Source of the DNA: Pseudofrankia saprophytica | GTDB taxonomy: Bacteria; Actinomycetota; Actinomycetes; Frankiales; Frankiaceae | DNA length: 64,000 nucleotides | Reading direction: 5' to 3' | Assembly: GCF_000235425.2 (NCBI RefSeq) | Contig: NZ_KI912266.1 | Span: forward strand, 736,273 to 800,272 | Part shown: piece by piece, positions 25,681 through 47,989 of the stretch | Position numbering within the stretch: position 1 is the first letter of the stretch | Layout: each line of letters starts with the position of its first letter | Program-made: the position numbers and the translations under genes | Notes under the pieces: model-generated | The model's database searches: none | What the model was told of the DNA's origin: nothing | What the model saw: the letters and a program-made list of their open reading frames with translations, nothing else

Positions 25681-25744
25681 GGCCATCACGTGTTTCCTCC
25701 TTCTCGAGTTCTTGGTCGTTCTCGAAAAGGATCACGCGATGGCC
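25681..25744. repeat. Hairpin repeat, copy 2 of 2
   Basis: This copy matches 3951-4013 over almost its full length, including TTCTCGAGTTCTT, CGTTCTCGAAA and ATCACGCGATGGCC. The outer dyad GGCCATCACG/CGCGATGGCC has one mismatch. It sits directly after the ferritin-like gene and could serve as its terminator. Confidence 0.5.
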
Positions 25745-25942
25745 GTCCGCGGTCTTCCGCCGGATTGGCTGCAAACCTGGCTGCCCGAAGCGCTCGGGCT
25801 CACCATGTCGCCAGTTATCATGGTCACGATGCTCCCGTTACGGTTCAGCAGCAGTACGGGCAAGGCTGTTTAGCAGGTTGCGCGACGTCGGGCAGGGACT
25901 TGCCGCATGGTTGGTAGTCGATGATGGAAGGCAGAAGATCTG

Positions 25943-26209
25943 TTGACGGAATATCCGGTGGCGCGTCAGCATGATCCTCGGGACCCCTGGTCCGTATACC
26001 ACTTCTCACAATCGAATCCCAAGGGCGCTGGTCAGGGTGACATAAGCGCCCTGCTCCGGCGGGTCGCTGACTCGATTGATGCACTGGGCGAGGTTGACGT
26101 TCAGGACCTGATGATGCATACCGAGGTCACGGCCGACGGCGACTGGCACTCGATCACGGTCTATTACGAACGCGCCGACGAAGACCGCGGCGCTGAACCT
26201 ACGGATTAA
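25943..26209 (+). CDS. Conserved hypothetical protein, 88 aa
   Basis: The product reads WSVYHFSQ, then ISALLRRVADSIDALGEVDVQDLMMHTEV and DGDWHSITVYYER. From memory, similar small actinobacterial proteins share the pattern of a helix LLRRVADSI followed by two strands ending in VYY. The function is unknown. TTG 25943 or GTG 25958 could be the start, with GGAAGG about 12 bases before TTG. It is soluble and stands alone just before the 26.3-kb att-like module. Confidence 0.6.
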   Translation: MTEYPVARQHDPRDPWSVYHFSQSNPKGAGQGDISALLRRVADSIDALGEVDVQDLMMHTEVTADGDWHSITVYYERADEDRGAEPTD

Positions 26210-26274
26210 GTCCCCGCCGGCCGGCGCACGCCGTGCGCTGATCGTAGGGCCGACCACACATCGCGGCCGCCCGG

Positions 26275-26390
26275 TCGGGAGATCGTCCAGGGTGATCCGC
26301 GGAGGTCGGCAGTCGTCCGCCATACCTGGTCACGGTCCTGCCCACGTCCGCCGGCGGCGCTCATCCGTCGGTGCCCGCGGGCTTGGCTGT
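26275..26390. repeat. attP-like module, copy at 26.3 kb
   Basis: ATCCGC, GTCGGC and GTCCGC lie at 26295, 26305 and 26315. GTCCGC recurs at 26346, exactly 51 bp after the first hexamer. Degenerate hexamers follow at 26363 and 26373, then CTTGGCTGTACC at 26382, 9 bp after the last. The core position (26275-26281) reads TCGGGAG and has no clear tRNA T-arm beside it. The module is weaker than the one at 34.13 kb but keeps the spacing and the CGGGCTTGGCTGTAC end word for word. Confidence 0.5.
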
Positions 26391-26476
26391 ACCAGCCGAT
26401 CGTCCAGGAGCCTCACAGAAGCTGGGACTCGCCAGGGGTATGTAGAGCCGATCCGACCGTCCCGTACCCTGTCGCC

Positions 26477-26977
26477 GTGAGCATGATCGGGGAGTACCTG
26501 CGAGTCACACCGAGCCAGCTGGACCAGGCCGTCAAGGATCCCGAATGGGCACTCGATCTCGCCGAGACGGTTCGCGATTCACAGGACGAGAGCAAGCCAA
26601 CGCCAGCTGAGGCACTACATTTCAGTACCTACAAGACATGGGGTCTGCTCGCATTTTTGTTGCGGCGATCATCTTTCCCCGTAGATATCATCCACGGCGA
26701 GGAATGCTTCGCCGAAGATGAAGACTGGGGTTATGGACCTCCACGGTATCTGTCAGTGGAGCGGGTCAGGCTAGCGGCAGAGATCCTGCAGCAGACCACC
26801 TATGACCAGCTGATTCGGACGGTCACCCCCTCAGAAATCGCCAATGCCGACATTTACCCCCAAAGCGCGAACTCCGCGGACTCCCTAGAATGGGGGCGTG
26901 ACTATTTCATTCCCCTGACGGCCTTCTTCCAGGGAGCAGCCGCGGCCGGCCACGCGGTACTGGTCTGGCTCGACTGA
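26477..26977 (+). CDS. DUF1877 (YfbM-like) family protein
   Basis: The 166-residue product starts MSMIGEYLRVTPSQLDQAV and has HFSTYKTWGLLAFLL, a central EDEDWGYGPPRYLSVERV and a late GRDYFIPLTAFFQGAA. This is the DUF1877 layout, whose E. coli member is YfbM. The role is unknown, and members are often found next to toxin or mobile-element genes. GTG 26477 is the farthest start and ATG 26483 the alternative. GC content is a little lower than in the neighbours. It lies directly after the att-like module, so it may be cargo. Confidence 0.75.
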   Translation: MSMIGEYLRVTPSQLDQAVKDPEWALDLAETVRDSQDESKPTPAEALHFSTYKTWGLLAFLLRRSSFPVDIIHGEECFAEDEDWGYGPPRYLSVERVRLAAEILQQTTYDQLIRTVTPSEIANADIYPQSANSADSLEWGRDYFIPLTAFFQGAAAAGHAVLVWLD

Positions 26978-27135
26978 CCAAGCATGCAAAAGGCCTGCGT
27001 TACAGCTCAGGCCCACCAGGTGTGAAGTTACCACTCATCGGACGAGTTCCCACGGCGGCCCCGAAGCATCCAGCCGAAGTCCTCGGCGGGCCGCCCACTT
27101 CTCCTTGCCCGAGTGCCGCGACCGCCGATGGGCCC

Positions 27136-27774
27136 CTAGCGCCCGCTCTCATGATGTAGATCCGGGGCCTGCGCGGGCGCTGGTGCTACCCAGGTGAGCC
27201 ATCGGTGGAGGGTGCTGAAGTCGGCGTCGGTCAGGCCGTGGCCGGGGTCGACTCGGTGGAGCAGGGCCGGTCCTCGATGGTGTGCCGTGACCCACGTCCG
27301 GTCGGGGGAGGTGATCTCGTCGTCGACCCAGGCGAACGGGCGGCCTGCAGCCCAGGTGACCAGGGCGCGGGTTTTCCAGTGCAGGCCGTTGTGTTCATCC
27401 CATGCATCGAATTCGGACGGTTCCGGCCACGTCACGACGGCCAGTTCAGGCAGTCCGAGCCGCGGCGCGACGTAGTCGTTGGCGTCGGCCATCCACGTGG
27501 TGGCCCAGACAAGCTCACCCGGCAGGGCCGCCAGCCGGGGCCCGTGGCCGGAGTCGATCCTCGCAAGCAGCGGGTTCGCCCCCGATGACGCTGATCCGCA
27601 GCCGGGTCCCTGGCTCGGATAGGTGCCCGCCGGGGCGCCGAAGGGAATGAGTGGCCCGTCCACATCAAGGAAGATCAGCGGCTCGCCTACGGAGCTGTCC
27701 ACGCTCACACCATAGGGCTGATCGATGCGTTGAAGCCCCGAGCGGTAGGCCGTGGCTCGGGCTCCGATCTGCAT
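27136..27774 (-). CDS. HAD-domain hypothetical protein
   Basis: The 212-residue product carries the HAD motif I, LIFLDVDGPLIPFG (DxDG). A LVWATTWMADAN block resembles motif II (W-A-T-T/S-W), and FAWVDDEI supplies the late acidic residues. It is therefore a likely HAD-fold phosphatase of the small group seen in actinobacteria and phage. The start is unclear: ATG 27774 is farthest, and GTG 27708 or 27702 lie just before the conserved region. The last 25 residues are disordered. Confidence 0.7.
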   Translation of the reverse strand: MQIGARATAYRSGLQRIDQPYGVSVDSSVGEPLIFLDVDGPLIPFGAPAGTYPSQGPGCGSASSGANPLLARIDSGHGPRLAALPGELVWATTWMADANDYVAPRLGLPELAVVTWPEPSEFDAWDEHNGLHWKTRALVTWAAGRPFAWVDDEITSPDRTWVTAHHRGPALLHRVDPGHGLTDADFSTLHRWLTWVAPAPAQAPDLHHESGR

Positions 27775-28079
27775 CAGCCAGGCTCTCGCTCCCAGGGAGT
27801 CGGCCCTGGCGCGCCGGCTCGGTCAGACGGCGACGTTGGCGGTCAGGAAGTCGTTGAGGAGGCACACGATCCGCGGGCGAGAGCGGCCACAGGCATTTTC
27901 AACGAGAGTCAGCACTGAGAAATTTCAAGATGACTTACGTCCGTCCGTGAGTGTATGCAACGGTCGCCTGGTCCAGGTCGCGCCGCCGGCGGCATCCGCG
28001 TACGTCTACTTTCGTCCGTCGTCATTCGCGAACTTGACTGTCGGCACCGTATGGTCCAAGGTGGCACGTAGCTCGCCCT
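27775..28079. other. Intergenic region, nothing supported
   Basis: About 300 bases with lower GC than average lie between two minus-strand genes. No frame has good coding character. I see no clear hairpin. Confidence 0.4.
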
Positions 28080-28496
28080 CTAGTCGCCGCGCCGGCCCGC
28101 CGGAGGTGGCTGGTCCCCTACTGGAGAGGTGCCTTCCTCGGATCGTACGTCTTCGTCCGCTTCCTGCATCATTAGGCGATGCAGGTGTGCCCCAAAAACC
28201 GAACTCGCAAAAATTGCCGGCGGCGCCAAATTGCCTTCTAGAATCTTCAGCTCCTCAAGGGGCCAAAGAATTAGAGCGACAGCGCCGTAAGCTACGGCGA
28301 GGTACAGCATCCAACGAAGAATGAGTGCCGGGTGAGCCCGAAGAAACCGCGCTATCGCACGAGGCCCTATCATCTTCTTGAGGTCATCGCTAAGCAATTC
28401 GGCAGGCGTCCGGCGCCTTGGTCGCTCGCGATGCCGACCCGCGGGAGGTCCCGCGGAGCTCACTAGATCGCGGGTCCGTCCTCCGCGGCTTCTCAC
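28080..28496 (-). CDS. Possible small membrane protein
   Basis: The 138-residue frame has one clear transmembrane helix, ILRWMLYLAVAYGAVALILW, preceded by an Arg-rich cytoplasmic region and followed by a short second hydrophobic stretch (APPAIFASSVFGAHL) and an acidic tail. I see no conserved family. The start is uncertain, and an internal start near LLSDDLKKMI (ATG about 28370) may be correct. It lies between genes that look like mobile-element debris. Confidence 0.4.
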   Translation of the reverse strand: MRSRGGRTRDLVSSAGPPAGRHRERPRRRTPAELLSDDLKKMIGPRAIARFLRAHPALILRWMLYLAVAYGAVALILWPLEELKILEGNLAPPAIFASSVFGAHLHRLMMQEADEDVRSEEGTSPVGDQPPPAGRRGD

Positions 28497-28556
28497 GCTG
28501 CGAGCGTCCCACAGCCGCAGAAGGTTCGTAAGGAAGTGCCAGCGTTACGCCGGCCT

Positions 28557-28722
28557 GACTTCAGCGAGAGCGCGGGCACCCTCCTCGCCGAACTTCAGGT
28601 GACCCTCGTCCGCGGCGTGCAGGGGCTCATCGTCGGGTCGACGAAGAACCGCGCCGGGCACTGCGCGATCGCGCTGCCCGAGAAGTGCATCGACGTCCTC
28701 CCTCACACGCCGCGCCGGGCGG
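28557..28722 (+). pseudogene. Integrase fragment related to the intact integrase at 46.5 kb
   Basis: The frame reads DFSESAGTLLAELQVT, then RGVQGLIVGSTKNRAG and ALPEKCIDVL. The intact integrase has DFNESAGTLRVELQVT, RGVQGLIVGPTKSRAG and ALPGKCIDVL at the same places. Only about 55 residues, covering the region after the catalytic Arg, remain. The C-terminal His-x-x-Arg and Tyr parts are gone. It marks a second, older element of the same family near the present one. Confidence 0.75.
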
Positions 28723-30649: not shown

Positions 30650-30941
30650 ACGCCCGTCAGCCCGCCGCCATGTCCGGCCGGTGACAGAAACGACGCCAGC
30701 CCGCAACGGCATCAGCTGGCGCACTCTCGACGGGGGCGATGCGCCGAGGTACTCCAAAGATGGATTCGTGCATACTCTCGCCGCAGGTCAGGGTCACGCC
30801 CAGCCTCGCCGGGCCTGCAGCAGATCGCCGCCAGATTGGTCTCCGGACGGACGCCGTGAACCCGGCCTTCGGCCGCGAGGCGGGCGTCGCGCCGGGTGAC
30901 TGGCGGAGGAACGCGAACTGCAGTACGGACCCCGGAAAGTC

Positions 30942-31040
30942 CAGAGCCCCGCGCTGCCTTGCGGCTGCTGCGGGGCTCTGACCTGTCTCGACCAGACGTG
31001 CGCTCGGAGGGACTCGAACCCCCAACCTTCTGATCCGTAG
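30942..31040. repeat. Left attachment-site repeat (99 bp) with tRNA-Arg 3' half
   Basis: These 99 bases are identical to 47860-47958. They carry the tRNA-Arg 3' half, from the anticodon loop to the discriminator base (30999-31040), and the terminator hairpin beyond it. Identity stops abruptly after the anticodon loop: next base A here, T in the intact tRNA. This is the displaced chromosomal 3' end left by integration. Confidence 0.92.
30943..30979. terminator. Terminator hairpin in left att repeat
   Basis: AGAGCCCCGC and GCGGGGCTCT form a perfect 10-bp stem. This is the duplicate of the tRNA-Arg terminator at 47861-47897. It now also stands between the SARP gene and the element. Confidence 0.75.
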
Positions 31041-31053
31041 ACCTCGGCGGCCG

Positions 31054-31155
31054 GTCCACGGACGTCCGCAGACGTCCACCGGTCCAGGTCACGGCCTCGG
31101 CGACGTCCACCGACGTCCGCTGGCGTCCACCCCCGTTGCAGTACGAATGCAGTAC
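31054..31155. repeat. P-arm iterons of the present element
   Basis: GTCCAC, GTCCGC and GTCCAC lie at 31054, 31064 and 31074, and again at 31105, 31115 and 31125. These are two triplets at 10-bp spacing with a 51-bp offset. The first hexamer starts 14 bases after the tRNA anticodon loop (ends 31040). TTGCAGTAC then TGCAGTAC follow at 31135-31153, in the place where other copies have TTGGCTGTAC. Same-face spacing suggests cooperative binding by the integrase arm domain or an accessory protein. Confidence 0.65.
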
Positions 31156-31265
31156 GGCGGCCGGTCGGACGTTCGTCACGGAACGTTGCCAGGACGGACC
31201 GGATCGGCCCCAGGTTGGCGAAAACTGGTGGAGCGACTGCCCGATTGACCCCCATGCTTGCCGCG

Positions 31266-32576
31266 ATGAGCATCGAAGCCGAGGACATTCCACCAGCCTG
31301 GCATTACGCGTCGTACCGCAGCCTGCTCGGTGAGCTGCAACGAGGTCACGGCATCGCGGTAGTTCGACTGCGTGGCCAGCCTGAACATGCGCAAATAGTC
31401 TACGAGTGCACCAGCCGGGATACCCGTTGGGACTGGCAGGTCGACAATCGACGCGGTTATCTAGCCCGGCTGCTGCGTGACCTACGCCTCGATCTGGCTC
31501 CGCTGATCGCGCAGCTCCGCGCCTGCGGCCCCGACCGCCCCTGGCCACACCGGGATCCGACCAACGACGACAACCAGTTTCGTCTCACGGTCGGGATCCT
31601 CGAGACGCTGGCCCGCGCGGGCAACGCGCAGGCCAGCGAGGCGCTGCGTGGCTACGTCCGCGACGGGCTCCGCTGGGTCGAGGTGCTAGAGGTCATCAGC
31701 GAGGAATGGCCCGTCGAGTGGTGGGACGATCTTTGGGAGGCCGCCGCTGCCCGCCTTGACCTCGACGACACCACGCACCTGTTTCCCAGCGGCAAGCCTT
31801 GGCGACATTGGCGTGGCCGCGACCCCAGCCTCGATGCCCGCCTCGACGACGCCCTGCCCAACCGCTGCGACAGCCCAGCCACCGGGAACGATCTTACTGA
31901 AACGTCCGACGCCGATCTGATCGACCTCCTACGGGCACCGGACACAGATCGCGGCACCCTCGCAATGGCGCTGCGGCAGATTCGCCGCCGCGGCCATGCC
32001 GTACCGGAATTGCTCGAACTGGTCGAGCAGCTGAGAGCCGCTCGGGCCCCGGGCCTCACCCGCGCGCTGCACACACTCGGACCGCTCGTGGTCCCAGCCG
32101 CCCGAACCTGGGCCGCCGACTCCGACCACCCCCTGTTCCACGACGCCCCGGATCTCCTCGCCGAACACGGTGACGAACAGGACATCCCGACTCTCCTGAC
32201 CGCACTCGACCGCCTCGCCGACCAGTGGTGCGGCTACGACCAACTGACCGCGGGCCTCACCCGGATCGTCGCGGCCTTGCCACCGAACGCGCAGACGGAC
32301 ACCCGCGCCCTGCTCGTGCGCCGGCTGCGCTGGCTGGCCATCGCCTCGCCACATTCCTATGAACGGCCCAGTTACCTGCGCAGCCTGCTCCTTCTGGACT
32401 GGCAGCACACGCTGAACAACCTGCCGGCCTACCTTTTCGACTGCGAGCCGGAGGTAAGACAGCTAGCCGCCGAGAACATCCCGCTCACCGACAACGTGCG
32501 GAGCCTGCTGACTCTTCTGCGCGACGACCCCATCGAGGACGACGACGTCAAGCACGCCGTAGCACGCCGACTATGA
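31266..32576 (+). CDS. HEAT-repeat-like hypothetical protein (AICE cargo)
   Basis: The product of about 436 residues is helical. The N-terminal 100 residues are a separate domain (PAWHYASYRSLLGELQRGH...DTRWDWQVDNRRGYLARLLRDL). From about residue 120 there are paired helices, such as LETLARAGNAQASEALRGYV and LLAEHGDEQDIPTLLTALDRL, like HEAT repeats, ending with LTLLRDDPIEDDDVKHAVARRL. Such scaffolds bind proteins or nucleic acid. No enzyme motif is seen. The start is uncertain (ATG 31266 or 31254, no clear Shine-Dalgarno). It is the only gene between two att-like modules. Confidence 0.6.
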   Translation: MSIEAEDIPPAWHYASYRSLLGELQRGHGIAVVRLRGQPEHAQIVYECTSRDTRWDWQVDNRRGYLARLLRDLRLDLAPLIAQLRACGPDRPWPHRDPTNDDNQFRLTVGILETLARAGNAQASEALRGYVRDGLRWVEVLEVISEEWPVEWWDDLWEAAAARLDLDDTTHLFPSGKPWRHWRGRDPSLDARLDDALPNRCDSPATGNDLTETSDADLIDLLRAPDTDRGTLAMALRQIRRRGHAVPELLELVEQLRAARAPGLTRALHTLGPLVVPAARTWAADSDHPLFHDAPDLLAEHGDEQDIPTLLTALDRLADQWCGYDQLTAGLTRIVAALPPNAQTDTRALLVRRLRWLAIASPHSYERPSYLRSLLLLDWQHTLNNLPAYLFDCEPEVRQLAAENIPLTDNVRSLLTLLRDDPIEDDDVKHAVARRL

Positions 32577-32649
32577 CGGCCGGCCCAGCGAAGAGCCGTG
32601 CCGGTAGGGATCGATCCCCGCGAACAAGCCCCCATGACCGGCGATCCGC

Positions 32650-32813
32650 CTCGCGCTCGGACGGACTCAACCCGAGCACTTGATCCATAGTTTGATCTGG
32701 ATCATCCACGGACGTCCACAGCGGTCCGCCGGTGCAGGTCGTCGACCCGGGCGGCTCCATCGCGGTCCACAGTTGTCCGCAAGCGTCCATCGGCTCGCCT
32801 GTCACTTTGGCTG
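32650..32813. repeat. attP-like module B with degenerate tRNA-Arg core
   Basis: TCGCGCTCGGACGGACTCAA (32651-32670) and TGATCCATAG (32681-32690) mirror the tRNA-Arg core of the element with several changes. Hexamers ATCCAC, GTCCAC and GTCCGC start at 32704, 32714 and 32724, the first again 14 bases after the loop end. GTCCAC, GTCCGC and GTCCAT follow at 32765, 32775 and 32785 (offset 61, one helical turn more than elsewhere). CCTGTCACTTTGGCTGTCA at 32798-32816 nearly matches CCTGTCAACTTGGCTGTCA at the element's right end. Confidence 0.65.
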
Positions 32814-32910
32814 TCAGCGTCAACTCGGCGACCTCACGCCGCACTGGCGACTGACCTTCGGGTGGCTTGGGGACGCCGCGGCACGAGGCGGTGGCGTCCC
32901 CCGGACTCGG

Positions 32911-32971
32911 CCCGACTCGAACGGGCTGCCACCCTCTCCTAGTCGTGGGTGCGGTCATCCGGAGCCTCCGC
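32911..32971. repeat. Decayed att-like core C, tRNA T-arm visible
   Basis: GCCCGACTCGAACGGGC, read on the minus strand, is a perfect tRNA T-arm (GCCCG-TTCGAGT-CGGGC; 32910-32926). The spacing to CTCCTAG (32936-32942, minus-strand loop CTAGGAG) is right for an anticodon loop. ATCCGG at 32957 and CTCCGC at 32966 stand where iterons are expected. The anticodon-stem partner is absent, as in an att core that begins at the loop. Confidence 0.45.
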
Positions 32972-33029
32972 ACCTTGGGCGAGGACGATCAAAGCGTAAG
33001 GCATGACAGCGGTCTGATCGACCAGGAGA

Positions 33030-33138
33030 TTATGAGATCTTCCATGCCTCGTCCACCGACGTCCGCTGATGCTGGTTGCGGACACAGATCAGTCCGCCGA
33101 GCGCGGTGCTCGTCCGCAGTCGTCCACGAGTTTGGCTG
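33030..33138. repeat. attP-like module with Met-like core
   Basis: TTATGAG (33030-33036; minus strand CTCATAA, the tRNA-Met anticodon loop) precedes GTCCAC and GTCCGC at 33051 and 33061. The second set has GTCCGC and GTCCAC at 33112 and 33122, in register with a 51-bp offset. TTTGGCTG follows at 33131, 9 bp after the last hexamer. The tRNA T-arm is too decayed to confirm. Confidence 0.5.
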
Positions 33139-33167
33139 CAACCGTCCTCCCAGCCACCCAAGGCCCC

Positions 33168-33218
33168 GCAACAGGACTTGAAGCCTCCGCCGGAGATTTC
33201 CGACCTCCCGGTTACAAG
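33168..33218. repeat. tRNA 3'-half-like scrap D (Thr-TGT-like)
   Basis: On the minus strand CTTGTAA (33212-33218 complement) is followed some 30 bases later by a TTCAAGTCC T-loop-like block and GCGGGGC. This resembles a tRNA-Thr(TGT) 3' half with an insertion. No ordered iterons follow. Low confidence. Confidence 0.3.
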
Positions 33219-33391
33219 ATTTTCTTATTCCACCCTGGATGTTTACCGACATCTTTACAGTCCGCCGGTGCCTTACATGGTTCCACCGTAGCCCGCCGAC
33301 ATCGGCCGGTATTCACAGGTTTGGCCGCACGAATGATCATACCACCCTTCGACCCGCCGCCGCGATAACAAAAATTGCATCCGCACCGGAT

Positions 33392-33898
33392 TCAACGCTT
33401 GAGTTTTGAGTGCTCTTCACGCAGCATTCCACTACTATCCTTAATCCACCTTTTTCCGTAGAAGTCGGTAAAACGCATCACCCAAGAATAGTTCCAATCT
33501 CTATTTGTAAGACCCTTGATCGGAAAGATGCCCTCCGGTGTTCGATCCGCAATCTCGCCAGCCGAAATGCTCGGAAAATTGATCTCGGACCGCTGCGCGG
33601 AGTGACCAGGTGGCGTAGCAATCAGCGAAATAGTTACCTCAAAGAGCGGGTATGGAGATGTCTCATTATTTATTTGGATAGAAGTCGCTCCCCAGTGTCC
33701 ATCGTAGTCCCAGGGGGCCGTGAACACTACCGAAACGAGTCGAGCTTGAATTTTTTGAGCTTCAAGCTTTTCAGACCTGTCTTTTTCGGTGTCCGCCCTG
33801 TTTTTTTGCTGTTGCAGATATATTCCGGCAAATCCAGCGGTAACGCCGAATGCCTGAATCCAGGCGGGGACGTACTCTGCAACCGGTGTCATGAACAT
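33392..33898 (-). CDS. Membrane-anchored hypothetical protein (AICE cargo)
   Basis: The 168-residue product has an N-terminal transmembrane helix (residues about 8-28, YVPAWIQAFGVTAGFAGIYL). A charged, coiled-coil-like stretch follows (QQQKNRADTEKDRSEKLEAQ), then a beta-rich soluble domain with WDYDGHWGATSIQINN and NYSWVMRFTDFYGKRWIKD. It has no known catalytic motif. GC content is visibly lower than in the backbone, which suggests recent transfer. It lies between two att-like modules. Similar anchored small proteins occur in defence-rich islands, but that link is an inference. Confidence 0.65.
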   Translation of the reverse strand: MFMTPVAEYVPAWIQAFGVTAGFAGIYLQQQKNRADTEKDRSEKLEAQKIQARLVSVVFTAPWDYDGHWGATSIQINNETSPYPLFEVTISLIATPPGHSAQRSEINFPSISAGEIADRTPEGIFPIKGLTNRDWNYSWVMRFTDFYGKRWIKDSSGMLREEHSKLKR

Positions 33899-34317
33899 AT
33901 GCTAAGCGGCGTGCGCCTACGACGCGCGATGACTTTGAACCTAATACCATAGGAAAGAGGCGGTCTCCATGCTGGCGGGGCGAAACTGGACGGCGCCACA
34001 GCGTTCTGAATGCCTAGCGTCGGTAGTGTAAAACGGTCTCGAACCACCTGCGCCGCATTGCAACCCTAGTAGAGATAGAGCCAACGAGACTCGAACCTCC
34101 AACCCACCGATTACAAGATCGGCCCAGCTAGTCCGCTGACGTCCACGCTCGTCCGTCGATCCTAGTTACAGTCCCGCCCGCGTCCACCGCCGTCCGCCGG
34201 GGTTGACCGGTGTCCGCGGGCTTGGCTGTACGGATGGCTGTACCAGATGCGCCAACGGCTATCTTGAGCAAGCGAACTGACTGATCTTGAGGGTGGCGCA
34301 GTTGAGGTATGACCCTT
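33899..34317. other. Intergenic region containing att-like module E
   Basis: About 420 bases between two minus-strand cargo genes. The right two thirds is module E (34083-34245). The left third holds no visible feature beyond the promoter expected for the gene ending at 33392. Confidence 0.5.
34083..34245. repeat. attP-like module E, tRNA-Thr(TGT)-like core
   Basis: The core reads, on the minus strand, CTTGTAA (anticodon loop, 34111-34117), a 5-base gap, GGAGG and TTCGAGTCTCG, like a tRNA 3' half. Hexamers GTCCGC, GTCCAC and GTCCGT start at 34131, 34141 and 34151, the first 14 bases after the loop end. GTCCAC, GTCCGC and GTCCGC follow at 34182, 34192 and 34212 (51-bp offset). CTTGGCTGTAC at 34221 is repeated as TGGCTGTACC 12 bp on. 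It is the best-preserved copy without a partner repeat in the window. Confidence 0.65.
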
Positions 34318-35406
34318 CTACGCCGGTTCGGATCGATCCATGCCAGTAAGACGACGAATCACCTCAGGGGCATATCGAACGAACAATTCCACAGCGACTT
34401 CCACTGGGCCGTCCGCATCAAACTCCCCGGTTCCGTGAACACCATTTCGATACTTGTTGACTTCTTTAAATTTCTCGATATCCTCATTGGCAGTCTTCGG
34501 AAAGAATGTCAGCGCGACCGCCGCAAACTTGAATATGATTCCCCGATCTGGGTCGCGGGCCGGATTGCCCGAACTGTCAGATGGGAGCGGCCAGATCAGC
34601 TCTCGGACCGCCAAGCCAGAAAGAATAGACCCACCTTCATCCTCGAATCTAATCCTTTCGGCGATATCACCTCGAATGGAACCGAGAACCTTGTTTACAC
34701 ACATATCAATTCCGGCATAAGCCCACATCAATCGTTTGAATGGATCCCGTTCGCCCAGCACGAGAGATATCCATCGACCGATTGAAGATGCTGGACTCTT
34801 GCCGCTCTTCGGGAAGTAACTTTGAACGGACTTTAGATCTCCTAAGTCAAGGCTCTCGAAAGGTTTTTGAACTGACACCCTGGCTTGGCCTACTGAGAAC
34901 AACGGGATGGGGCGAGAAACATTCGGCCCGCACCGCACAAGTATCCCAGATTCTTCGATAAACTCAGAGAGGATTTCTGGGCCAAGTAGGCCAGCGAGGA
35001 CACCTGTAGCTAGGTCAAGGGTTCGGTTCCGAGCCTCGCGGCTGGAGTCAGCCGCTCGTCTCGCCGAATCGAAATCGAACCACCAGTCTTCAGATTCATC
35101 CTTCCCACTCCCGACAGAAATGTCCGAGCGTTCTTCCACCTTTATGCATACATAGATCCGTCCTTTCGTTCTCCAATCATCCGGCGCACTGTAGTCAGAT
35201 TCCACCTTTTTCGGATCGGAGAGACGGCCCAGGAAATAGAGAGCAGAACACTTAGCCCCAAGGATCTCGTCTGGCACCTCTCCAACTGTGACGCTTACAT
35301 GGCGGTGTTCGTGTTTGAACGAGATGCCATCCAACAATTGCGGCAGATCTTTATAGGTCTCGGCCGACCTGAAAATCCGGTACGTCCATAGGCTCGTCAT
35401 AACCAC
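34318..35406 (-). CDS. Large hypothetical protein with C-terminal HEPN-like motif (AICE cargo)
   Basis: The product of about 362 residues has an N-terminal half with beta-like stretches (HVSVTVGEVPDEIL, KGRIYVCIKVEE). The helical C-terminal half has KRLMWAYAGIDMCVNKVLG and KEVNKYRNGVHGTG. The RNGVHG motif in a helical context resembles HEPN domains (Arg-Asn...His), which in many defence and toxin systems are RNases, although the Arg-His spacing is one residue shorter than usual. The start GTG 35406 follows GGAGGGG. GC content is low for this genome. It is divergent from the Mrr-like nuclease at 35773. Confidence 0.6.
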   Translation of the reverse strand: MVMTSLWTYRIFRSAETYKDLPQLLDGISFKHEHRHVSVTVGEVPDEILGAKCSALYFLGRLSDPKKVESDYSAPDDWRTKGRIYVCIKVEERSDISVGSGKDESEDWWFDFDSARRAADSSREARNRTLDLATGVLAGLLGPEILSEFIEESGILVRCGPNVSRPIPLFSVGQARVSVQKPFESLDLGDLKSVQSYFPKSGKSPASSIGRWISLVLGERDPFKRLMWAYAGIDMCVNKVLGSIRGDIAERIRFEDEGGSILSGLAVRELIWPLPSDSSGNPARDPDRGIIFKFAAVALTFFPKTANEDIEKFKEVNKYRNGVHGTGEFDADGPVEVAVELFVRYAPEVIRRLTGMDRSEPA

Positions 35407-35772
35407 CGTCGCCCCTCCATCCGTCAACGCGGGCCGGTCCACCTGCTGCAAGTAGGTAGACCTTTACCTGAGCAGCGTACCGAAGGCGACAGTACATTGA
35501 GCGTCACACTGTCCGCATCTTGCGTCGCATTCAGTAATACGAATCGATGCCATCGGGTAGGGTGCCGCCATCCATCGGGACCGGCGACCAGGCATGGCCA
35601 GCGGGTCGGGATGGGCTCGAAGCTCGCGGCTGGAGGAATACCACATGATCAGCTCCGTCGTCCGCCACCGCCGACTTGTGTAGGTCACAGGTCTCACGAC
35701 AGTCGTGGCATCACCGCTCGTCCACGCCGTTGCCGTGCGCTAGAGTCCACATCACCTGGCTGGTACGTCATA

Positions 35773-41611: not shown

Positions 41612-41739
41612 TAGCCGCGTTTTATCGCGGGTTTCCCGGGGCGCCGGTCTGAATCGGCGTCGGCGCCTCGGGGCCTGCCCTCTTTTCTCACGTTTCCTTG
41701 CCCTGGCTTTGCCCTGCCGTGAAACGGGTGGTATTCGTC

Positions 41740-43404
41740 ATGCCAAGAATCAACGGGGACCGCCGCATCCCGTCCCTACCCGCGCGCCACGACACGATCC
41801 GTGTACCGCTGTGGATGGTGCTCGTCGGCCTCGCGGCCCGGCTGTGCGGCCGGTTCGCGATGCTGCTCGTGCGACACCCGTTCACCGTCGCCGTCCTGGT
41901 CATCCTGACCGCGTTCTACCGGAGCACGGGCTTGCTCGGCCTGGCCGCGCTGGCCGGCGCGGTGCTGACGGTCGCGATCGTCTGGCGGCTGGTGCATCGG
42001 TGCTCGTTCGACCGGGCGGCCCGGTGGACCTGGGGCCGGCTCCGGTTCGTGGCCGTCTACCGCCGCAAGTGGCGGGCGGCGACCGTGCATTGCGGCCTGG
42101 CGATCCAGATCCCCGCCTCCAACGCGGAGCGGGTGACCTTTGACGAGTACTTCCCCCGTATCCGCGGCTTCCGCGCCTCGGTCGCGGTGGAGTCGCTGCG
42201 GGTGGAACTGCTACCCGGCCAGACTCCCGACGTCTGGGCGGAGCAGGCGGAGGCGCTGCGGCACATCTACCGGGCGCGGGCGTGCCGGGTCCGTGCGGAG
42301 CGGGTCGGGTTCGTCTGGGTCGACTTCTACCGCCGCGACCCGCTGGACACCGTCGTGCCCCCGGCGCCGCTCGATGGGCCGAACGCTCCGGGTGATCTCG
42401 AGAGCCTGCCGCTCGGCCGGCGGGAGGACGGCGCGCCGTGGCTGCTGCCGCTGCGCGGCTCCCATGTTCTGGTCGCCGGTGCCACCGGGTCGGGCAAGGG
42501 CTCGGTGCTGTGGTCACTGATCCGCGCCCTCGGCCCGGCCGTCTCCGCCGGACTCGCCGAACTGTGGGTCTGCGACCCCAAGGGCGGGATGGAGATGGCC
42601 GCGGGGGCGCCGATGTTCGCCCGGTTCGCCTACGACCTGCCCTCCATCGCCGACCTCCTCGACGACGCGGTAGCCCGCATGCAGTCCCGCGCCGACGGGC
42701 TGCGGGGTGTGTCCCGGCTCCATGTGCCGACCGTGGGCGACCCGCTGATCGTGGTCGTCGTCGACGAGATCGCCGCACTCACCGCCTACGCGACCGACCG
42801 CGATCTCAAGAAGCGACTGTCGGCCTCGCTGCCACTGCTGCTGTCGCAGGGACGGGCGCCGGGCGTGGTCGTGGTGGCCGCGGTCCAGGACCCGCGCAAG
42901 GAGACGCTGCCGTTCCGCGACCTGTTCCCGGTCCGGGTCGCGCTGCGCCTGGTCGAAGCCGATCAGGTCGACCTGGTCCTCGGCGCCGGCGCGCACGAGA
43001 AGGGCGCCCGCTGCGAAGACATCCCACCCGGCCAGCAGGGCACGGGCTACGTCGCCGAGGACGGCGGCGCCGAACCGATCCGGGTCCGCGCGTCCTTTCC
43101 CGATGACGCGGAAATCCGCCGGACCGTCGACCGTTACCGCGTCCCGGCCACCGGCTGGATACCAGAACTGCCGGCCATGCCTGTGCGTCCGCAGCTACCA
43201 GCGCCCGCCGTCTGGCCGGACGTGGTGGAGATCCTCCGGGCGCGCGGCTTCGGCGACGTCCTCGGCCTCGACCCGCCGGTCCGGCGGCGACGGCTCTCGT
43301 GGTCACGGCCCAAGGTGCGCGGCCGGCGCCCCGCTCCCCGCGGTCGGGCAGACGGCTGGGTTCCCGACCTGACCGAGTACGGCGACCCGTGGACCGACCA
43401 ATGA
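41740..43404 (+). CDS. FtsK/SpoIIIE-type DNA translocase (TraSA-like)
   Basis: The product of about 554 residues has two to three N-terminal transmembrane helices (PLWMVLVGLAARLCGRF; FTVAVLVILTAFYR; LAALAGAVLTVAIVW). A soluble domain follows, then the ATPase: Walker A VAGATGSGKGSVLWSLI near residue 260 and Walker B LIVVVVDEIAALTAY near 345. In AICEs this protein moves double-stranded DNA between cells. Start choices are ATG 41740, GTG 41719 and a farther one at 41698. Its stop overlaps the ATG of the initiator gene (ATGA), so the two are translationally coupled. Confidence 0.88.
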   Translation: MPRINGDRRIPSLPARHDTIRVPLWMVLVGLAARLCGRFAMLLVRHPFTVAVLVILTAFYRSTGLLGLAALAGAVLTVAIVWRLVHRCSFDRAARWTWGRLRFVAVYRRKWRAATVHCGLAIQIPASNAERVTFDEYFPRIRGFRASVAVESLRVELLPGQTPDVWAEQAEALRHIYRARACRVRAERVGFVWVDFYRRDPLDTVVPPAPLDGPNAPGDLESLPLGRREDGAPWLLPLRGSHVLVAGATGSGKGSVLWSLIRALGPAVSAGLAELWVCDPKGGMEMAAGAPMFARFAYDLPSIADLLDDAVARMQSRADGLRGVSRLHVPTVGDPLIVVVVDEIAALTAYATDRDLKKRLSASLPLLLSQGRAPGVVVVAAVQDPRKETLPFRDLFPVRVALRLVEADQVDLVLGAGAHEKGARCEDIPPGQQGTGYVAEDGGAEPIRVRASFPDDAEIRRTVDRYRVPATGWIPELPAMPVRPQLPAPAVWPDVVEILRARGFGDVLGLDPPVRRRRLSWSRPKVRGRRPAPRGRADGWVPDLTEYGDPWTDQ

Positions 43405-45113
43405 CCACCGTGGACCACGACGACACCGACCCCGGCGCGGCCAGTCCATCGACCGAGGAGCCGAGGCCTGGTTCACGGCTGGCCCGGATGCGCCAGCCAC
43501 TCGCCCGCCACGTCGTCGAAGCAGTCGCCGTCGAAGAGGGCGTATGCGTGCGGCCGGTGGCGCTACGCCGCGTCGACCTCGACACCGGCGAGACCACCCT
43601 CATCCCCGCACCCTGCGGCGCCACCCTCGCGAGCAAATGCCCGCCGTGTGCGGAGCGGGCGCGGCGGCTGCGGATGGCGCAGTGCAGGAGCGGATGGCAC
43701 CTCGACGACGAACCGCTGCCCGACCCTGATCCGCCGTCGGACGAAGCCAAGGACCTCTGCCGGCTGCGCGCCGATCTCGAAGCCCTCCGCAAAGAGTCCG
43801 AGCAAGCCGGCGACGCGGCCAACGTCGCCGACATCGACGGAGTGATCGGTCATGTCGACGAGGCCCTCGCCGAGCTCGGCGTACGCGGCAAGACAGCGCC
43901 GGACAACCGGGAACGGCCACGACGGATCCGCTCGACCCGGCGGCGACAGGACGCCGCGGACCTGCCTCGGCTACCCGTCGACAAGCGCACCATCGGCCGC
44001 ACCTACACCGCCCCGGACGGCACGACCTGGCGGCCCTCGATGTTCCTCACCCTCACCTGCGACACCTACGGCCGCGTCCTAACCGACGGCACACCCGTCG
44101 ATCCGGATTCGTACGACTACCGGCGGGCGGCGCGGGACGCGATTCACTTCGCGAAACTGATCGATCGGTTCTGGCAGAACCTGCGCCGCGCTGTGGGCTG
44201 GGACGTCCAGTACTTCGCGGTCCTGGAACCACAGCGACGGCTCGCCCCGCACCTACACGCCGCGTTCCGCGGAACCGTTCCCCGCATCGTGCTGCGCCAG
44301 GTCGCGGCCGCGACCTACCACCAGGTGTGGTGGCCGGCTACCGGCACGCCCGCATACGCGCCGGACGGTCCTGATCTGCCTACGTGGGACGAGCAGACGG
44401 GCAGCTACGTCGATCCGGTCACCGGGGCAGAGCTGGTCTCATGGGATGACGCGCTCAATGCCATCGGCCCGGACGACGAACCAGCCCATGTCGTCCGGTT
44501 CGGGCCGCAGATCCGCGCGGACGGCGTCACCGCCAACGGCGAGACCGCCGGGAAGTTGATCGGCTATCTGACCAAGTACCTGACCAAATCGTTGGATGGC
44601 TGCCACGCGGTCGAGACGGACCGCCAGCGGGCACACGTCGACCGGCTGGCGGCGGCGCTGCGCTATGAGCCGTGCTCGCCGATCTGCGCGAACTGGCTCC
44701 TGCACGGGATCGCGCCGAAGAACGCCCGGCCCGGCCTCGCTCCCGGCCGGTGCAAGGGCAAGACCCACCGGCGGGAAACGCTCGGCTTCGGCGGCCGGCG
44801 GGTCCTGGTCTCCCGCAAGTGGTCCGGCAAGACCCTCGGCGACCACAAAGCCGACCGGATCGACTTCGTCCGCGCCCAGCTCGAAGCCCTCGGCCACCGG
44901 CCCGACGACGGCAGTCCGGCAGAGCAGCCGGTCGCCAACTCGGCGAACGCGCCACGGCTGGCCTGGGAACTGGTCCGGCCCGGCGACCAGGATGCGCCCC
45001 GACGCGAACATCTGATCTTGCGCGCGATCGCGAACCGGCAACGCTGGCGCGCGCAGTTGATACCCCCGGACGCGACCGGACCCCCGGGCCGAGACCGGCC
45101 GTCCGCGGCCTGA
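43401..45113 (+). CDS. RepSA-type rolling-circle replication initiator
   Basis: The 570-residue product has a zinc-binding region (CPPCAERARRLRMAQC) near residue 78. The HUH-type initiator motifs follow: FLTLTCDTYG (motif 1), PHLHAAFRG (motif 2, His-Leu-His) and IGYLTKYLTKS (motif 3, with the catalytic Tyr region). It would nick the double-strand origin of the excised element and start rolling-circle replication. Length and layout match RepSA of pSAM2-like AICEs. It overlaps the translocase gene by 4 bases. Confidence 0.88.
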   Translation: MTTVDHDDTDPGAASPSTEEPRPGSRLARMRQPLARHVVEAVAVEEGVCVRPVALRRVDLDTGETTLIPAPCGATLASKCPPCAERARRLRMAQCRSGWHLDDEPLPDPDPPSDEAKDLCRLRADLEALRKESEQAGDAANVADIDGVIGHVDEALAELGVRGKTAPDNRERPRRIRSTRRRQDAADLPRLPVDKRTIGRTYTAPDGTTWRPSMFLTLTCDTYGRVLTDGTPVDPDSYDYRRAARDAIHFAKLIDRFWQNLRRAVGWDVQYFAVLEPQRRLAPHLHAAFRGTVPRIVLRQVAAATYHQVWWPATGTPAYAPDGPDLPTWDEQTGSYVDPVTGAELVSWDDALNAIGPDDEPAHVVRFGPQIRADGVTANGETAGKLIGYLTKYLTKSLDGCHAVETDRQRAHVDRLAAALRYEPCSPICANWLLHGIAPKNARPGLAPGRCKGKTHRRETLGFGGRRVLVSRKWSGKTLGDHKADRIDFVRAQLEALGHRPDDGSPAEQPVANSANAPRLAWELVRPGDQDAPRREHLILRAIANRQRWRAQLIPPDATGPPGRDRPSAA

Positions 45114-46299: not shown

Positions 46300-46509
46300 A
46301 TGCCCGAAAACACGCCCACCCCACCGCGCATCACCCCCGCGCAGGCGCTTCACGAACACCTCGACCGGGCCGCGCTCGGCCAGGGCGTCGGCTACCCGCA
46401 GCCCGACGGCGAAACGAAATTCGCCTGCGACATGGAAGACAGCCCGTACGGCTGCCCCTGGTGCGATCACTTCGAGTGGCCCGACGGCAACCCGCTGGAC
46501 GTGGCGTGA
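46300..46509 (+). CDS. Small Cys-containing protein, coupled to integrase
   Basis: The 69-residue product starts at ATG 46300 after AAGGAGCC. It contains ITPAQALHEHLDRAALGQGV, then FACDMEDSPYGCPWCDHFEW. The C...CPWC arrangement could bind a metal. Its TGA overlaps the integrase ATG in TGATG, so expression of the two is coupled. Confidence 0.55.
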   Translation: MPENTPTPPRITPAQALHEHLDRAALGQGVGYPQPDGETKFACDMEDSPYGCPWCDHFEWPDGNPLDVA

Positions 46510-47825
46510 TGGCCGCGCGCAAGGCACGCCGCGGCGATGGCGACGAGACGACCAACCAGGACTCGGTAGCCAGCACTGACACCGACCAGACCTCGACAGA
46601 ACGAACGCGGCGCAACCGCCGTGCACACGGCGAGGGTTCGGTGTTCTGGCGCGAGGATCGGAAGCGCTGGGTCGTCGAGATCGACTACGGCATCGTGAAC
46701 GGCAGGCGCAAGAAGGTACCGCGCTACTTCAAGACCCAAGAGGAAGCGATCGCGGCCCAGCAGGAGGCGCGGCAGGCTCAGGCCGACGGCGTCGCGAATC
46801 TTGACCGCCCCGCGCGGTTCGGCGACTTCCTGACGTACTGGCTCGACGAGGTGGTCATGCCGTCCGAGCGCGCGCTGTCCACGAAGTCCAGCTACCGCGA
46901 CAACGTCGAGAACCACGTCCGGCCCGGCCTCGGGAAGATCCGCGTCGTCGACCTCAAGCACGAGGACGTGCAGCGCTTCCTGAACGGCAAGGCGGTAGCC
47001 GGCTACAGCACGTCGACCATGCGCACCTTGCGGACGATCATCTCTCAGGCACTCGACGAAGCGGTCATCACGGAGAAGGCATCCCGCAACGTCGCGAAGA
47101 CGGTCCGCGTCCCCAAGGCCCGTAAGCCACGGCGTCAGGTCTCGGCGCTGAACCGTGACGATGGTCTCCAACTACTCGCGGCGGCTGAACCGACCCGGTT
47201 CTACGCGGTCTACGTCCTGCTCGCGATGGTCGGGCTACGACGCGGTGAAGTGCTCGCGCTGCGCTGGCGCGACTTCAACGAGAGCGCGGGCACCCTCCGC
47301 GTCGAACTCCAGGTGACCCGCGTTCGCGGCGTCCAGGGCCTCATCGTCGGGCCGACCAAGAGCCGCGCCGGCCAGCGGACGATCGCACTACCCGGGAAGT
47401 GCATCGACGTCCTGAAGACACACCGGCGCCACCTCGCGGCCGAACGACAGGCGGCCGGCAAGCGCTGGGAGGAGAACGGCTTGATCTTCCCCAACACCGT
47501 TGGTCGCTACCAGGAACCGCGCGCCCTGAACACGCACCTGGCCGCGCTGTGTAAAGAGGCGGGCCTACGCCACCTCGGCCCGCACGCCCTCCGCCACACC
47601 GCCGCGACCATGGCCTACGCCCTGGGCGTCGACTGGAAGCAGATTCAGGCGATGCTCGGCCACACGATGCTCTCGACCACGATGGACATCTACGTCGACA
47701 TGGTCGAAGACGTCAGCCGCGACGCGGCGACCAAGCTCGATGCCTGGTTCGACACGGCGGACGACGCCGAGGACCAGGAGGACGACGAGCCGAGCGACCC
47801 GGACGACAGGGCGGAAGCGGGCTGA
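46509..47825 (+). CDS. int: Tyrosine site-specific integrase
   Basis: The 438-residue product has a basic N-terminal arm-binding region (GSVFWREDRKRWVVEIDYG), a SAM-like core-binding domain (about residues 110-200) and the catalytic domain. Catalytic residues are visible: Arg in LRRGEVLALRW, Lys in TKSRAG, HALRHTAA, LGHTM and the nucleophile Tyr in TTMDIYVDM. The tail is acidic. It recombines the attP of the excised circle with the tRNA-Arg gene. It ends 34 bases before the 99-bp att repeat. A fragment of a close relative lies at 28557-28722. Confidence 0.93.
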   Translation: MAARKARRGDGDETTNQDSVASTDTDQTSTERTRRNRRAHGEGSVFWREDRKRWVVEIDYGIVNGRRKKVPRYFKTQEEAIAAQQEARQAQADGVANLDRPARFGDFLTYWLDEVVMPSERALSTKSSYRDNVENHVRPGLGKIRVVDLKHEDVQRFLNGKAVAGYSTSTMRTLRTIISQALDEAVITEKASRNVAKTVRVPKARKPRRQVSALNRDDGLQLLAAAEPTRFYAVYVLLAMVGLRRGEVLALRWRDFNESAGTLRVELQVTRVRGVQGLIVGPTKSRAGQRTIALPGKCIDVLKTHRRHLAAERQAAGKRWEENGLIFPNTVGRYQEPRALNTHLAALCKEAGLRHLGPHALRHTAATMAYALGVDWKQIQAMLGHTMLSTTMDIYVDMVEDVSRDAATKLDAWFDTADDAEDQEDDEPSDPDDRAEAG

Positions 47826-47837
47826 CAGTCCCTAGCC

Positions 47838-47855
47838 TGTCAACTTGGCTGTCAA
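47838..47855. promoter_or_regulatory. P'-arm motif at the right end
   Basis: CTGTCAACTTGGCTGTCA contains a direct repeat CTGTCA with 12-bp spacing and TTGGCTG. The same block, with one change, occurs at 32799-32816, and TTGGCTG occurs after most iteron arrays. It is a likely integrase arm site. Confidence 0.5.
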
Positions 47856-47859
47856 AGAG

Positions 47860-47958
47860 CAGAGCCCCGCGCTGCCTTGCGGCTGCTGCGGGGCTCTGAC
47901 CTGTCTCGACCAGACGTGCGCTCGGAGGGACTCGAACCCCCAACCTTCTGATCCGTAG
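47860..47958. repeat. Right attachment-site repeat (99 bp)
   Basis: Identical to 30942-31040. It forms the 3' half of the functional tRNA-Arg gene and its terminator, supplied by the element on integration. Confidence 0.92.
47861..47897. terminator. tRNA-Arg/int bidirectional terminator
   Basis: AGAGCCCCGC and GCGGGGCTCT form a 10-bp perfect stem with further pairing inside (GCTGC...). It lies between the converging integrase and tRNA genes and can stop both. Confidence 0.8.
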
Positions 47959-47989
47959 TCAGATGCTCTATCCGTTGAGCTACGAGCGC
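47917..47989 (-). tRNA. tRNA-Arg(ACG)
   Basis: The 73-base minus-strand gene folds as a normal cloverleaf: acceptor GCGCTCG/CGAGCGC, D-arm GCTC...GAGC, anticodon stem TCTGA/TCAGA with loop CTACGGA (anticodon ACG), and T-arm GGGGG-TTCGAGT-CCCTC. The discriminator is A and no CCA is encoded. ACG is read as ICG and decodes CGU/CGC/CGA. The 3' half comes from the integrated element and restores the sequence exactly. Confidence 0.95.

Follow-up and report, generated by a model that had tools for sequence, protein, structure and literature searches.

Modules repeated in tandem in the genomes of Frankiaceae probably (we put the chance at about 0.64) mark cassettes without an integrase of their own, which would have been inserted by integrases acting in trans and have built up head to tail, as in CIME accretion but in a variant form and at an integron-like scale. 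The window, that is, the whole stretch of DNA that was analyzed, comprises 64,000 nt of Pseudofrankia saprophytica (GCF_000235425.2, NZ_KI912266.1, positions 736,273 to 800,272, forward strand). Each module consists of a tRNA-loop-like core, GTCCRC hexamers in 10-bp steps and a pair of short repeats. These modules are attP-like, as the original prediction had it, although they correspond to one half (the P′ side) rather than to a whole attP.

Modules with this layout occur at 31.03, 32.68, 33.03, and 34.11 kb of the window, and the hexamers predicted at 10-bp steps after tRNA-loop-like cores were confirmed in all four places. Exact GTCC[A/G]C starts are at 31054/64/74 and 31105/15/25 in the 31.05 copy; at 32714/24 and 32765/75 in the 32.7 copy (plus the variants ATCCAC at 32704 and GTCCAT at 32785); at 33051/61, 33092, and 33112/22 in the 33.05 copy; and at 34131/41, 34182/92, and 34212 in the 34.13 copy. 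The second hexamer set had been placed at +51, or +61 in the 32.7 copy; this spacing stands, except that the 33.05 copy likewise has +61, with an extra hexamer at +41. The motif TTGGCTG lies 10 bp from the start of the last hexamer (33132, 34222), not 9 bp past its end as had been stated, and in the 32.7 copy it is 22 bp after 32785. The 31.05 copy lacks TTGGCTG and has its own pair, GCAGTAC at 31138/31149, a difference that proved meaningful; by its repeats this copy belongs to class R1, and the resident integrase to R2. The stack is real, but longer than four copies, given that a profile adds modules at 16737, 25739 (partial), 26273, 27921, and 33209-33335 (weak, Thr-like). Where a decayed core had been proposed at 32.92 kb there is indeed a tRNA T-arm-like remnant (32906..32960), but no arm sites were found there. 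The features of the window are as follows (strand in parentheses).

16737..16867 (+): further module, found by profile and overlooked originally
25739..25782 (+): partial module, end repeats alone, found by profile
26195..26210 (+): Lys-like core site GAACCTACGGATTAAG, unoccupied here; its homologous counterpart in genome G003 (L030:6584) carries a Lys-class module
26273..27873 (+): unit whose end repeat is of T type (a single GGCTGTAC; unclassed by scoring), common to an array in genome G006
27921..28529 (+): unclassed module with its unit, which has a 79% homolog elsewhere in that G006 array
28527..28718 (+): fragment of an integrase gene (73% identity with the resident one)
30914..31040 (+): R1-class element, right end: a single GCAGTAC at 30920 and then a tRNA-Arg(ACG) 3′ half with terminator
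31032..31160 (+): R1-class module with core GATCCGTAG, GTCCRC x3 + x3 and a GCAGTAC pair; the pair also stands beside R1 integrases
31215..32576 (+): one large ORF of 453 aa that takes up most of the R1 unit
32682..32816 (+): R2-class module, left flank diverged tRNA-Arg-like; CTGTCA/GGCTGTCA repeats as beside the resident integrase
32906..32960 (+): tRNA T-arm-like remnant, from direct reading; also in G004 locus L056
33028..33150 (+): module with Met-type core, given no class by scoring (profile, class scoring)
33199..33335 (+): decayed Thr-like module (repeat D11; profile E about 1e-5)
33392..33898 (-): ORF of 168 aa without a family match
34098..34243 (+): Thr(TGT)-type module with the GGCTGTAC pair at 34224/34236 (profile, class scoring)
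34318..35451 (-): ORF of 377 aa without a family match
41698..43404 (+): resident AICE, transfer gene of FtsK/SpoIIIE type
43299..45113 (+): resident AICE, replication initiator RepSA
46461..47825 (+): resident AICE, class R2 tyrosine integrase
47835..47854 (+): repeat pair on the integrase side (P), GCCTGTCA-N4-GGCTGTCA
47916..47989 (-): tRNA-Arg(ACG), the integration target; exactly here DNA similarity with the corresponding locus of G005 and G006 sets in

With Int, Rep, and an FtsK-type Tra between two att sites, the resident element is an AICE by definition; no excisionase was identified in it. Comparison with two relatives did not reveal where the island begins on the left, since both of their contigs end, and Rfam gave no match in three loci. 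In G003, G004, and G006, several modules lie close to contig ends. The R1-class right end at 30914..31040 matches the integrase-proximal end of L040, a locus with an R1 integrase, at 91% over 127 bp, and 103 of 105 bases of the region match 47854-47958 beside the resident integrase; in sequence, its junction with the next module reads like an R1 attP. The 453-aa ORF, for which Pfam, PADLOC, and NCBIfam gave no match, has an 83% DNA homolog in G004 (L070), followed there by an R2 module. The left flank of the module at 33028..33150 carries a K2-class module instead in G004 (L056 10160-10542).

The end repeats sort the modules into seven classes (R1, R2, A, K2, M, F, and T), assigned by scoring that leaves 30 of 174 modules unclassified, three of them in the window. 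Six classes (R1, R2, A, K2, M, and F) match a repeat pair beside a tyrosine integrase that lies at one specific tRNA (tRNA-Arg in two cases, and tRNA-Ala, -Lys, -Met, and -Phe in one each), and in each of the six the core is identical to a tRNA segment and the same end repeats stand both on the integrase side and distally, the marks of an attP P′ half. It is because of this match that we take the modules to be P′ halves of the attP of actinomycete AICEs. For class T, no integrase with a matching pair was found; the one at tRNA-Thr(TGT) (L229) has no GGCTGTAC pair, and at 14 of 30 integrase loci none of the sought repeat pairs is present. That one arm-site architecture has been joined to different tRNA-type cores is supported by the profile and by the linkage to integrases and tRNAs. 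Since the classes have their own end repeats, this reflects a family of related integrases, six of them paired with a tRNA and a repeat, and not one retargeted integrase.

Chance can be rejected as the origin of the modules. GTCCRC-N4-GTCCRC (at most one mismatch) occurs 22 times in the window versus 6.5 ± 2.6 times in dinucleotide shuffles, with fewer than 22 in all 100 of them. A longer spaced pattern gave 13 matches (11 places) in the whole genome versus one in reversed sequence. Of the 11 places, three (C1:3688150, 3823107, and 7957713) lack profile support and are probably chance. A scored module caller returned 30 modules from the window plus 20 related loci, and none from block-shuffled or reversed copies. 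The profile found 172 modules at E<1e-5 in 80 sequences and none in the reversed control, the 80 sequences being partly dependent (L031 and L049 overlap, L066 and L077 have a common contig end, and L062 and L074 are two contigs of a single genome that hardly differ, with 99.9% identity over 3.3 kb), so that a few of the 172 modules and of the 102 units described below are counted twice. Thus the spaced model is not equally frequent in shuffled sequence, and the modules are linked to integrases and tRNA 3′ ends in other genomes, the two points on which the original prediction had staked itself.

The profile is positive in 30 of 35 Frankiaceae genomes versus 4 of 197 other sampled genomes of the phylum; a pattern scan of genome contigs picked up at least two Frankia contigs, most of the matches listed falling outside the family. 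Arrays hold up to nine modules each, and neighboring modules in the fetched loci are on the same strand in 100 pairs and on opposite strands in none. Classes differ in 61 of 68 classified neighbor pairs, so simple accretion at one site does not account for the arrays. Same-class neighbors are somewhat rarer than in shuffles (7 versus 12.2, P 0.05), a difference too weak to use.

DNA has accumulated between the copies, as predicted, in the form of short units (median 0.84 kb; range 0.15-3 kb). Among the 102 units shorter than 3.5 kb, none has an integrase match longer than 900 bp, three have integrase fragments, and none has RepSA or FtsK; whole nested AICEs are thereby rejected as the content of short units. 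The original prediction had left the choice between nested decayed AICEs and stepwise cassette capture, and the lack of a complete integrase in any short unit makes stepwise accretion of integrase-less units the better fit. A scored ORF is present in 32 of the 102 units and in none of the 41 shorter than 0.6 kb, by a score whose training set was seven GC-rich genes and which overlooks AT-rich ones. In seven units of 0.79-1.65 kb, a single ORF of 225-453 aa fills at least 75% of the length, and some single-ORF units have conflict- or defence-type domain matches. At locus L201, ~1-kb Arg-type units stand in tandem, each with a tRNA 3′ end and with Arg cores on both sides.

Other genomes contain some of these units again, with ends at cores and with different neighbors. 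The unit at 26273..27873 is 96.5% identical over 1573 bp to one in the G006 array, again between different neighbors, and the unit at 27921..28529 matches another unit of that array (79%), in a different order. Across 71 unit alignments, the right end is at a core in 14 (crude expectation 2.7) and neither end is in 46; eight of the 14 are at shared tRNA flanks, and the remaining six are weak by themselves. The Lys-like core at 26195..26210 is unoccupied and its G003 counterpart is occupied. The R1 end is 99% identical in G006 contigs C9 and C69 and stops after 345 bp, which looks like an insertion followed by a deletion.

T-arm-like sequence lies left of the core in 36 of 165 modules, versus a background of 0.7%. 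In five classes (n=24, 15, 8, 7, and 7), modules without a T-arm resemble the tRNA mainly between -1 and about -7/-9, as expected for sites chosen by an integrase. The pattern points to integrase selection and not to the even decay of a tRNA, and part of the conservation at -5/-6 may be ascertainment, because the first profile had six low-weight columns left of the core (-7 is outside them).

We suggest the following route. A module is the P′-side half of an AICE attP, carrying the core, the GTCCRC hexamers, and class-specific end repeats, and a unit would be a non-autonomous cassette with an attP-type end and no gene, one gene, or a few. Cassettes may circularize and integrate by means of integrases supplied in trans by resident or visiting AICEs, the target being either a tRNA gene or a short core site (ACC-N4 + 9-bp loop). 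Each insertion would leave, at its right-hand end, a hybrid core that could serve as attB when a further unit with the same or a similar core class arrives; arrays would in this way grow head to tail in one orientation. The stack in the window would be such an array, adjoining and partly inside an R2-class AICE at tRNA-Arg(ACG).

Support for the cassette reading comes from the class match between modules and the integrase side; from the profile modules, with none in reversed sequence and a 100:0 orientation; from short units without integrase, RepSA, or FtsK, some with a single ORF and conflict/defence-type domains; from the left half-site pattern in modules without a T-arm and the T-arm-like sequence in others; and from homologous units with core ends but different neighbors, together with the core that is vacant in the window and filled in G003. 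Reports that tandem and composite Frankia AICEs excise, as does one with a truncated integrase, add to it (PMC3218068). Counting against it are class T without a cognate integrase, the 14 integrase loci without sought pairs, the 46 alignments with neither end at a core, the low proportion of units with a scored ORF, the broken R1 end, and the prevalence of different-class neighbors.

Several of these adverse points would suit a different history, which we regard as unlikely though a serious competitor, in which AICEs of several classes inserted at the tRNA and at secondary sites in a tolerant region and were deleted down to a P′ end plus scraps, the genes being leftovers. Integrase fragments in three units, decayed modules at 33.2 and 25.7 kb, the 41 small units without a scored ORF, and the R1 end broken off after 345 nearly identical bp all fit such decay. 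It does not readily explain why no short unit kept a full integrase, RepSA, or FtsK, why several units are filled by one ORF, how a 1.57-kb unit came to be common to two genomes at 96.5% between different neighbors, or the tandem units of L201 with a tRNA 3′ end each; and random secondary-site insertion would not be expected to give a 100:0 orientation. Shuffling mainly through homologous recombination or duplication between similar arm regions, and not by integrases, is very improbable: arm regions are alike across classes (A1), but in clear cases the breakpoints coincide with the 9-bp core or lie no more than a few bp from it, on the upstream side of the arms, and the half-site to the left has an integrase-like pattern. 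Iterons and regulatory sites, too, typically have direct repeats in helical phase, but a reading of the present repeats as sites of that kind, with no tie to integration, is scarcely credible given their fixed place beside anticodon-loop cores, and we rejected it on the class-wise match to the integrase side.

The original statement that no described system has this layout was too strong, given the published descriptions of tandem AICEs and second att sites in Frankia (PMC3218068) and of CIME accretion (PMC5704250). CIMEs are att-bounded units that have lost integration and transfer genes, form tandem structures, and can be mobilized by an incoming element (PMC5704250); the arrays resemble them in their tandem units without such genes and, for the Arg-type units of L201, in cores on both sides, and differ from what that source outlines in their 0.15-3 kb units, up to nine modules, and several integrase/tRNA classes mixed at non-tRNA sites. 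The Frankia AICEs, from the same host family and with the same Int/Rep/Tra set, tRNA targets, and extra att copies, include Fean6303 with attL and attL2 at tRNA-Arg and the tandem Fean5518/5534, and excision was reported for tandem, single, and composite forms and for one with a truncated integrase (PMC3218068). They are, however, of kilobase scale with two or three att copies, and the portion of that text used here describes no small-unit arrays, class-specific repeats, or mixed cores (PMC3218068). In the open-licence PMC literature, judged by title and the start of the abstract, no paper on such arrays was found.

Other recombination systems offer partial parallels. Integrons consist of small head-to-tail units in one orientation with one recombination site each, the recombinase often being missing from the array, and the arrays described here are alike in these respects. 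In contrast to attC, however, the site is an attP-type arm region plus a tRNA-loop core, and several recombinase classes are involved; no attI-like platform was identified in the arrays, and the resident integrase scores 52.9 versus an integron-integrase cut-off of 265 bits. The sites are of AICE type, and by these two marks the arrays stand apart from classical integrons. The pdif (XerC/XerD) modules of Acinetobacter plasmids are also gene modules bounded by tyrosine-recombinase sites without a recombinase of their own; pdif sites are short Xer sites, unlike the ~150-bp arm architecture of AICE integrases. Tycheposons, which are tRNA-linked tyrosine recombinase elements of marine cyanobacteria with cargo, partial tRNAs, and a family-specific recombinase, resemble the arrays, going by their general description, in the tRNA link and the tyrosine recombinase.

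A broader proposal, to which we give somewhat less than even odds, is that Frankiaceae have a cassette capture system that is integron-like in function and derived from AICE integrases, in which integrases of at least six classes, acting in trans, move a gene together with a ~150-bp tRNA-loop attP half-site and gather such cassettes from different classes head to tail, conflict and defence genes included. If true, this would be a second route, beside integrons, by which a tyrosine recombinase pools small gene units in arrays. A class code of one repeat pair to one integrase and one tRNA makes arm recognition by integrases legible from sequence, and the short secondary core (ACC-N4 + loop) is a natural data set for the relaxation of integrase targets. 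Such capture, again if true, could account for part of the flexible gene pool of Frankia.

The modules described in the original prediction are real features of the sequence: direct reading of the window placed all four at the claimed positions, with hexamers in 10-bp steps, and a spaced pattern found 13 matches in the genome versus one in reversed sequence. Some of the spacings given in the prediction needed correcting. The window holds 22 hexamer pairs versus 6.5 expected, a count reached in none of 100 shuffles. Scored modules (30 in 21 sequences) were absent from block-shuffled and from reversed copies of the same sequences. A profile search adds the following modules in the window.

16737, module
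25739, partial module
26273, module
27921, module
33209-33335, module

A profile built from the sequence of 29 modules (named R1) matches 123 places in seven of the eight genomes of the genus (threshold 1e-3), 30 of 35 Frankiaceae genomes including the source genome (1e-6), and four of the 197 genomes sampled elsewhere in the phylum (1e-8, with stricter filters). At E<1e-5 there are 172 modules in 80 sequences and none in the reversed control, the 80 sequences having been picked for holding matches and not being fully independent. Within 3.5 kb, each of the 100 neighbor pairs lies in one orientation. The largest stacks comprise nine modules (G006:C69), eight (G006:C123), seven (the window), and six (G003:C134). 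Where both neighbors could be classed by their end repeats (30 of 174 modules could not), 61 of 68 pairs join different classes, and under the same classing three or more classes occur together in 15 loci. A search of three stretches covering 30-84 kb of G006:C69 around its array turned up no tRNA gene. Locus L201 (3810-6831, array orientation) has the most clear-cut array with one tRNA type: four modules ~1 kb apart, with a tRNA-Arg 3' end before each. Separately, stretches of six array loci (L036, L072, L031, L066, L067, and L034) contain internal 126-bp repeats.

Behind the hexamers, each well-kept module has two short repeats spaced 11-12 bp apart, a pair that varies with the core. We inspected all of the best 30 integrase loci of a search, the window's own included, and found the same pairs behind the integrase in 16.

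Integrase-side repeat pairs by class
R2: CTGTCA/GGCTGTCA, six loci, five with tRNA-Arg(ACG)
R1: GCAGTAC, three loci, one with tRNA-Arg(ACG) and two with the Arg 3' half only
tRNA-Ala(TGC): GGCTACA, three loci
tRNA-Lys(CTT): GGGTACA, two loci
tRNA-Met(CAT): GGCTGCC, one locus, plus L047
tRNA-Phe(GAA): TTGCCGTCA, one locus

The sixth R2 locus, L222, has no tRNA-Arg(ACG) in its short stretch, and L236, at tRNA-Arg(ACG), was left out of the R1 count as its GCAGTAC-like pair differs by one letter. The other 14 loci have none of the pairs sought; by eye, four of them (L241, L242, L243, and L247, at tRNA-Phe, tRNA-Arg(TCT), and tRNA-Arg(ACG)) share another pair, GTTGCTACA, and are perhaps a further class. 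The pair of the T modules is absent at L229, an integrase at tRNA-Thr(TGT), and class T therefore has no cognate integrase in this set. Because the same pairs are found behind integrases, the modules are, judged by sequence, P' arms (one half of attP) of actinomycete integrative elements (AICEs), and the repeat pairs would be putative arm-type sites of the integrase. Hexamer rows were not seen in the integrase-side stretches examined.

The window (G000:C1:736273-800272, in a 9.98-Mb genome of the Frankiaceae) includes an AICE of its own.

41.7-47.99 kb, AICE genes (FtsK-type Tra, RepSA, integrase) and tRNA-Arg(ACG)

This tRNA locus varies between genomes: DNA of G005 and G006 becomes similar to the window precisely at the tRNA, with differing sequence on its other side. 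The resident integrase is of class R2, the class of the 32.68-kb module but not of the 31.03-kb module. The 105-base stretch that has the core at 31040 as its end is identical to 47854-47958 at 103 positions. Next to the 31.03-kb module, on its left, come a lone GCAGTAC and a tRNA 3' half (91% to L040) that resemble an R1 element's integrase-side end, so the junction there has the appearance of a complete R1 attP lying between two R1 units in tandem. Upstream of the transfer gene, a GC-rich stretch of ~95 bp (36563-36672) recurs in 16 other loci at 78-94% identity and is possibly a cis-acting site of AICEs. A tRNA-Gly prediction at 43884-43981 is probably a false positive because it sits within the RepSA reading frame.

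No complete integrase turned up in the short DNA units between modules. The 102 units under 3.5 kb have a median length of 838 bp; with 13 integrases as queries, none gave an integrase match above 900 bp and three held integrase fragments, and neither RepSA nor FtsK was found in any of the 102. A scored ORF is present in 32. Seven units (0.79-1.65 kb) each have 75% or more of their length taken up by a single ORF (225-453 aa). A domain scan of the 76 longest unit ORFs gives candidate genes only: among the first 25 of 64 families, EAD1, HTH, Gp49, Mrr, SUKH-3, GIY-YIG, and TPR (the last in two of the 76 ORFs) have one to three members each, and transposase domains also occur. PIN and OLD/AbiEii-like AAA domains occur in single proteins, and few members match PADLOC candidates (PDC-M02A, two; PDC-S14, one; mREase_IV, one; first 25 of 106). 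In the window stack, none of the three ORFs has a match.

In 17 of 27 hits, a ~60-bp hairpin element (e.g., L064:9741-9814 and L213:1030-1103) follows a module core downstream at a distance of 132-232 bp, on that core's strand. Across 25 aligned copies it has 17 pairs, six with two-sided compensatory changes; directly behind it, sequences become unrelated. No Rfam match was found for the three loci searched. There are 21 copies in six of the eight genus genomes, and none in the window.

Some units recur with their ends at cores. Window 26305-27873 matches G006 L029:5490-7062 at 96.5%; in L029 the match ends five bases into an R1 module's core, where the window runs on with other sequence. A second unit of this array matches 27939-28529 (79%); this match opens 18-19 bases past the core start and closes 20 bases short of the following L029 core, and the two shared units stand in opposite order in the two genomes. 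In G004, a congener of G000, locus L056 matches 32682-33066 at 92%; the match starts at the first core base and reaches 37-38 bases into the following module, which has a Met-type core in the window and is of class K2 in G004. G003 L030 carries a Lys-class module at a site whose window counterpart, GAACCTACGGATTAAG at 26195, is unoccupied. In 71 unit alignments, the right end falls at a core in 14 (crude expectation 2.7), the start in 13, and neither in 46; eight of the 14 end at shared tRNA flanks, so only six count for non-tRNA units.

We favor, at a little under two chances in three, integrase-less units integrated in trans and accreted head to tail; the main rival is a graveyard of AICE ends. 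T-arm-like sequence occurs left of the core in only 36 of 165 modules (background 0.7%), including all four of L201, and in none of the modules listed for the dense arrays L029, L030, L059, L037, L056, and L061. Core sites are otherwise short: among modules lacking a T-arm, identity with the tRNA is high mainly from -1 to about -7/-9 and best at -5 to -7 (ACC), some ascertainment being possible as columns -1 to -6 entered the first profile at low weight. Beyond that, identity is mostly background, with single exceptions (e.g., -10 in small K and A sets). Such a short conserved stretch is the pattern expected if integrases chose secondary sites; from the decay of a tRNA end one would expect an even fading instead.

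Under accretion in trans, a unit would be integrated by an integrase encoded elsewhere, arrays would grow head to tail at the hybrid core left at the unit's right end, and classes could join if their cores are similar (Met GATTATGAG, Lys GATTAAGAG). Junctions between unlike cores, e.g., Met and Arg, stay unexplained by this mechanism. In Frankia, PMC3218068 reports that tandem and composite forms of AICEs are excised, as is one AICE whose integrase is truncated. AICEs and tRNA att sites (PMC3218068) and CIME accretion (PMC5704250) are already known components. At title and abstract level, the open literature searched yielded no arrays in which small units without an integrase share hexamers, carry class-specific end repeats, and mix core classes. 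Such arrays may be read as integron-like.
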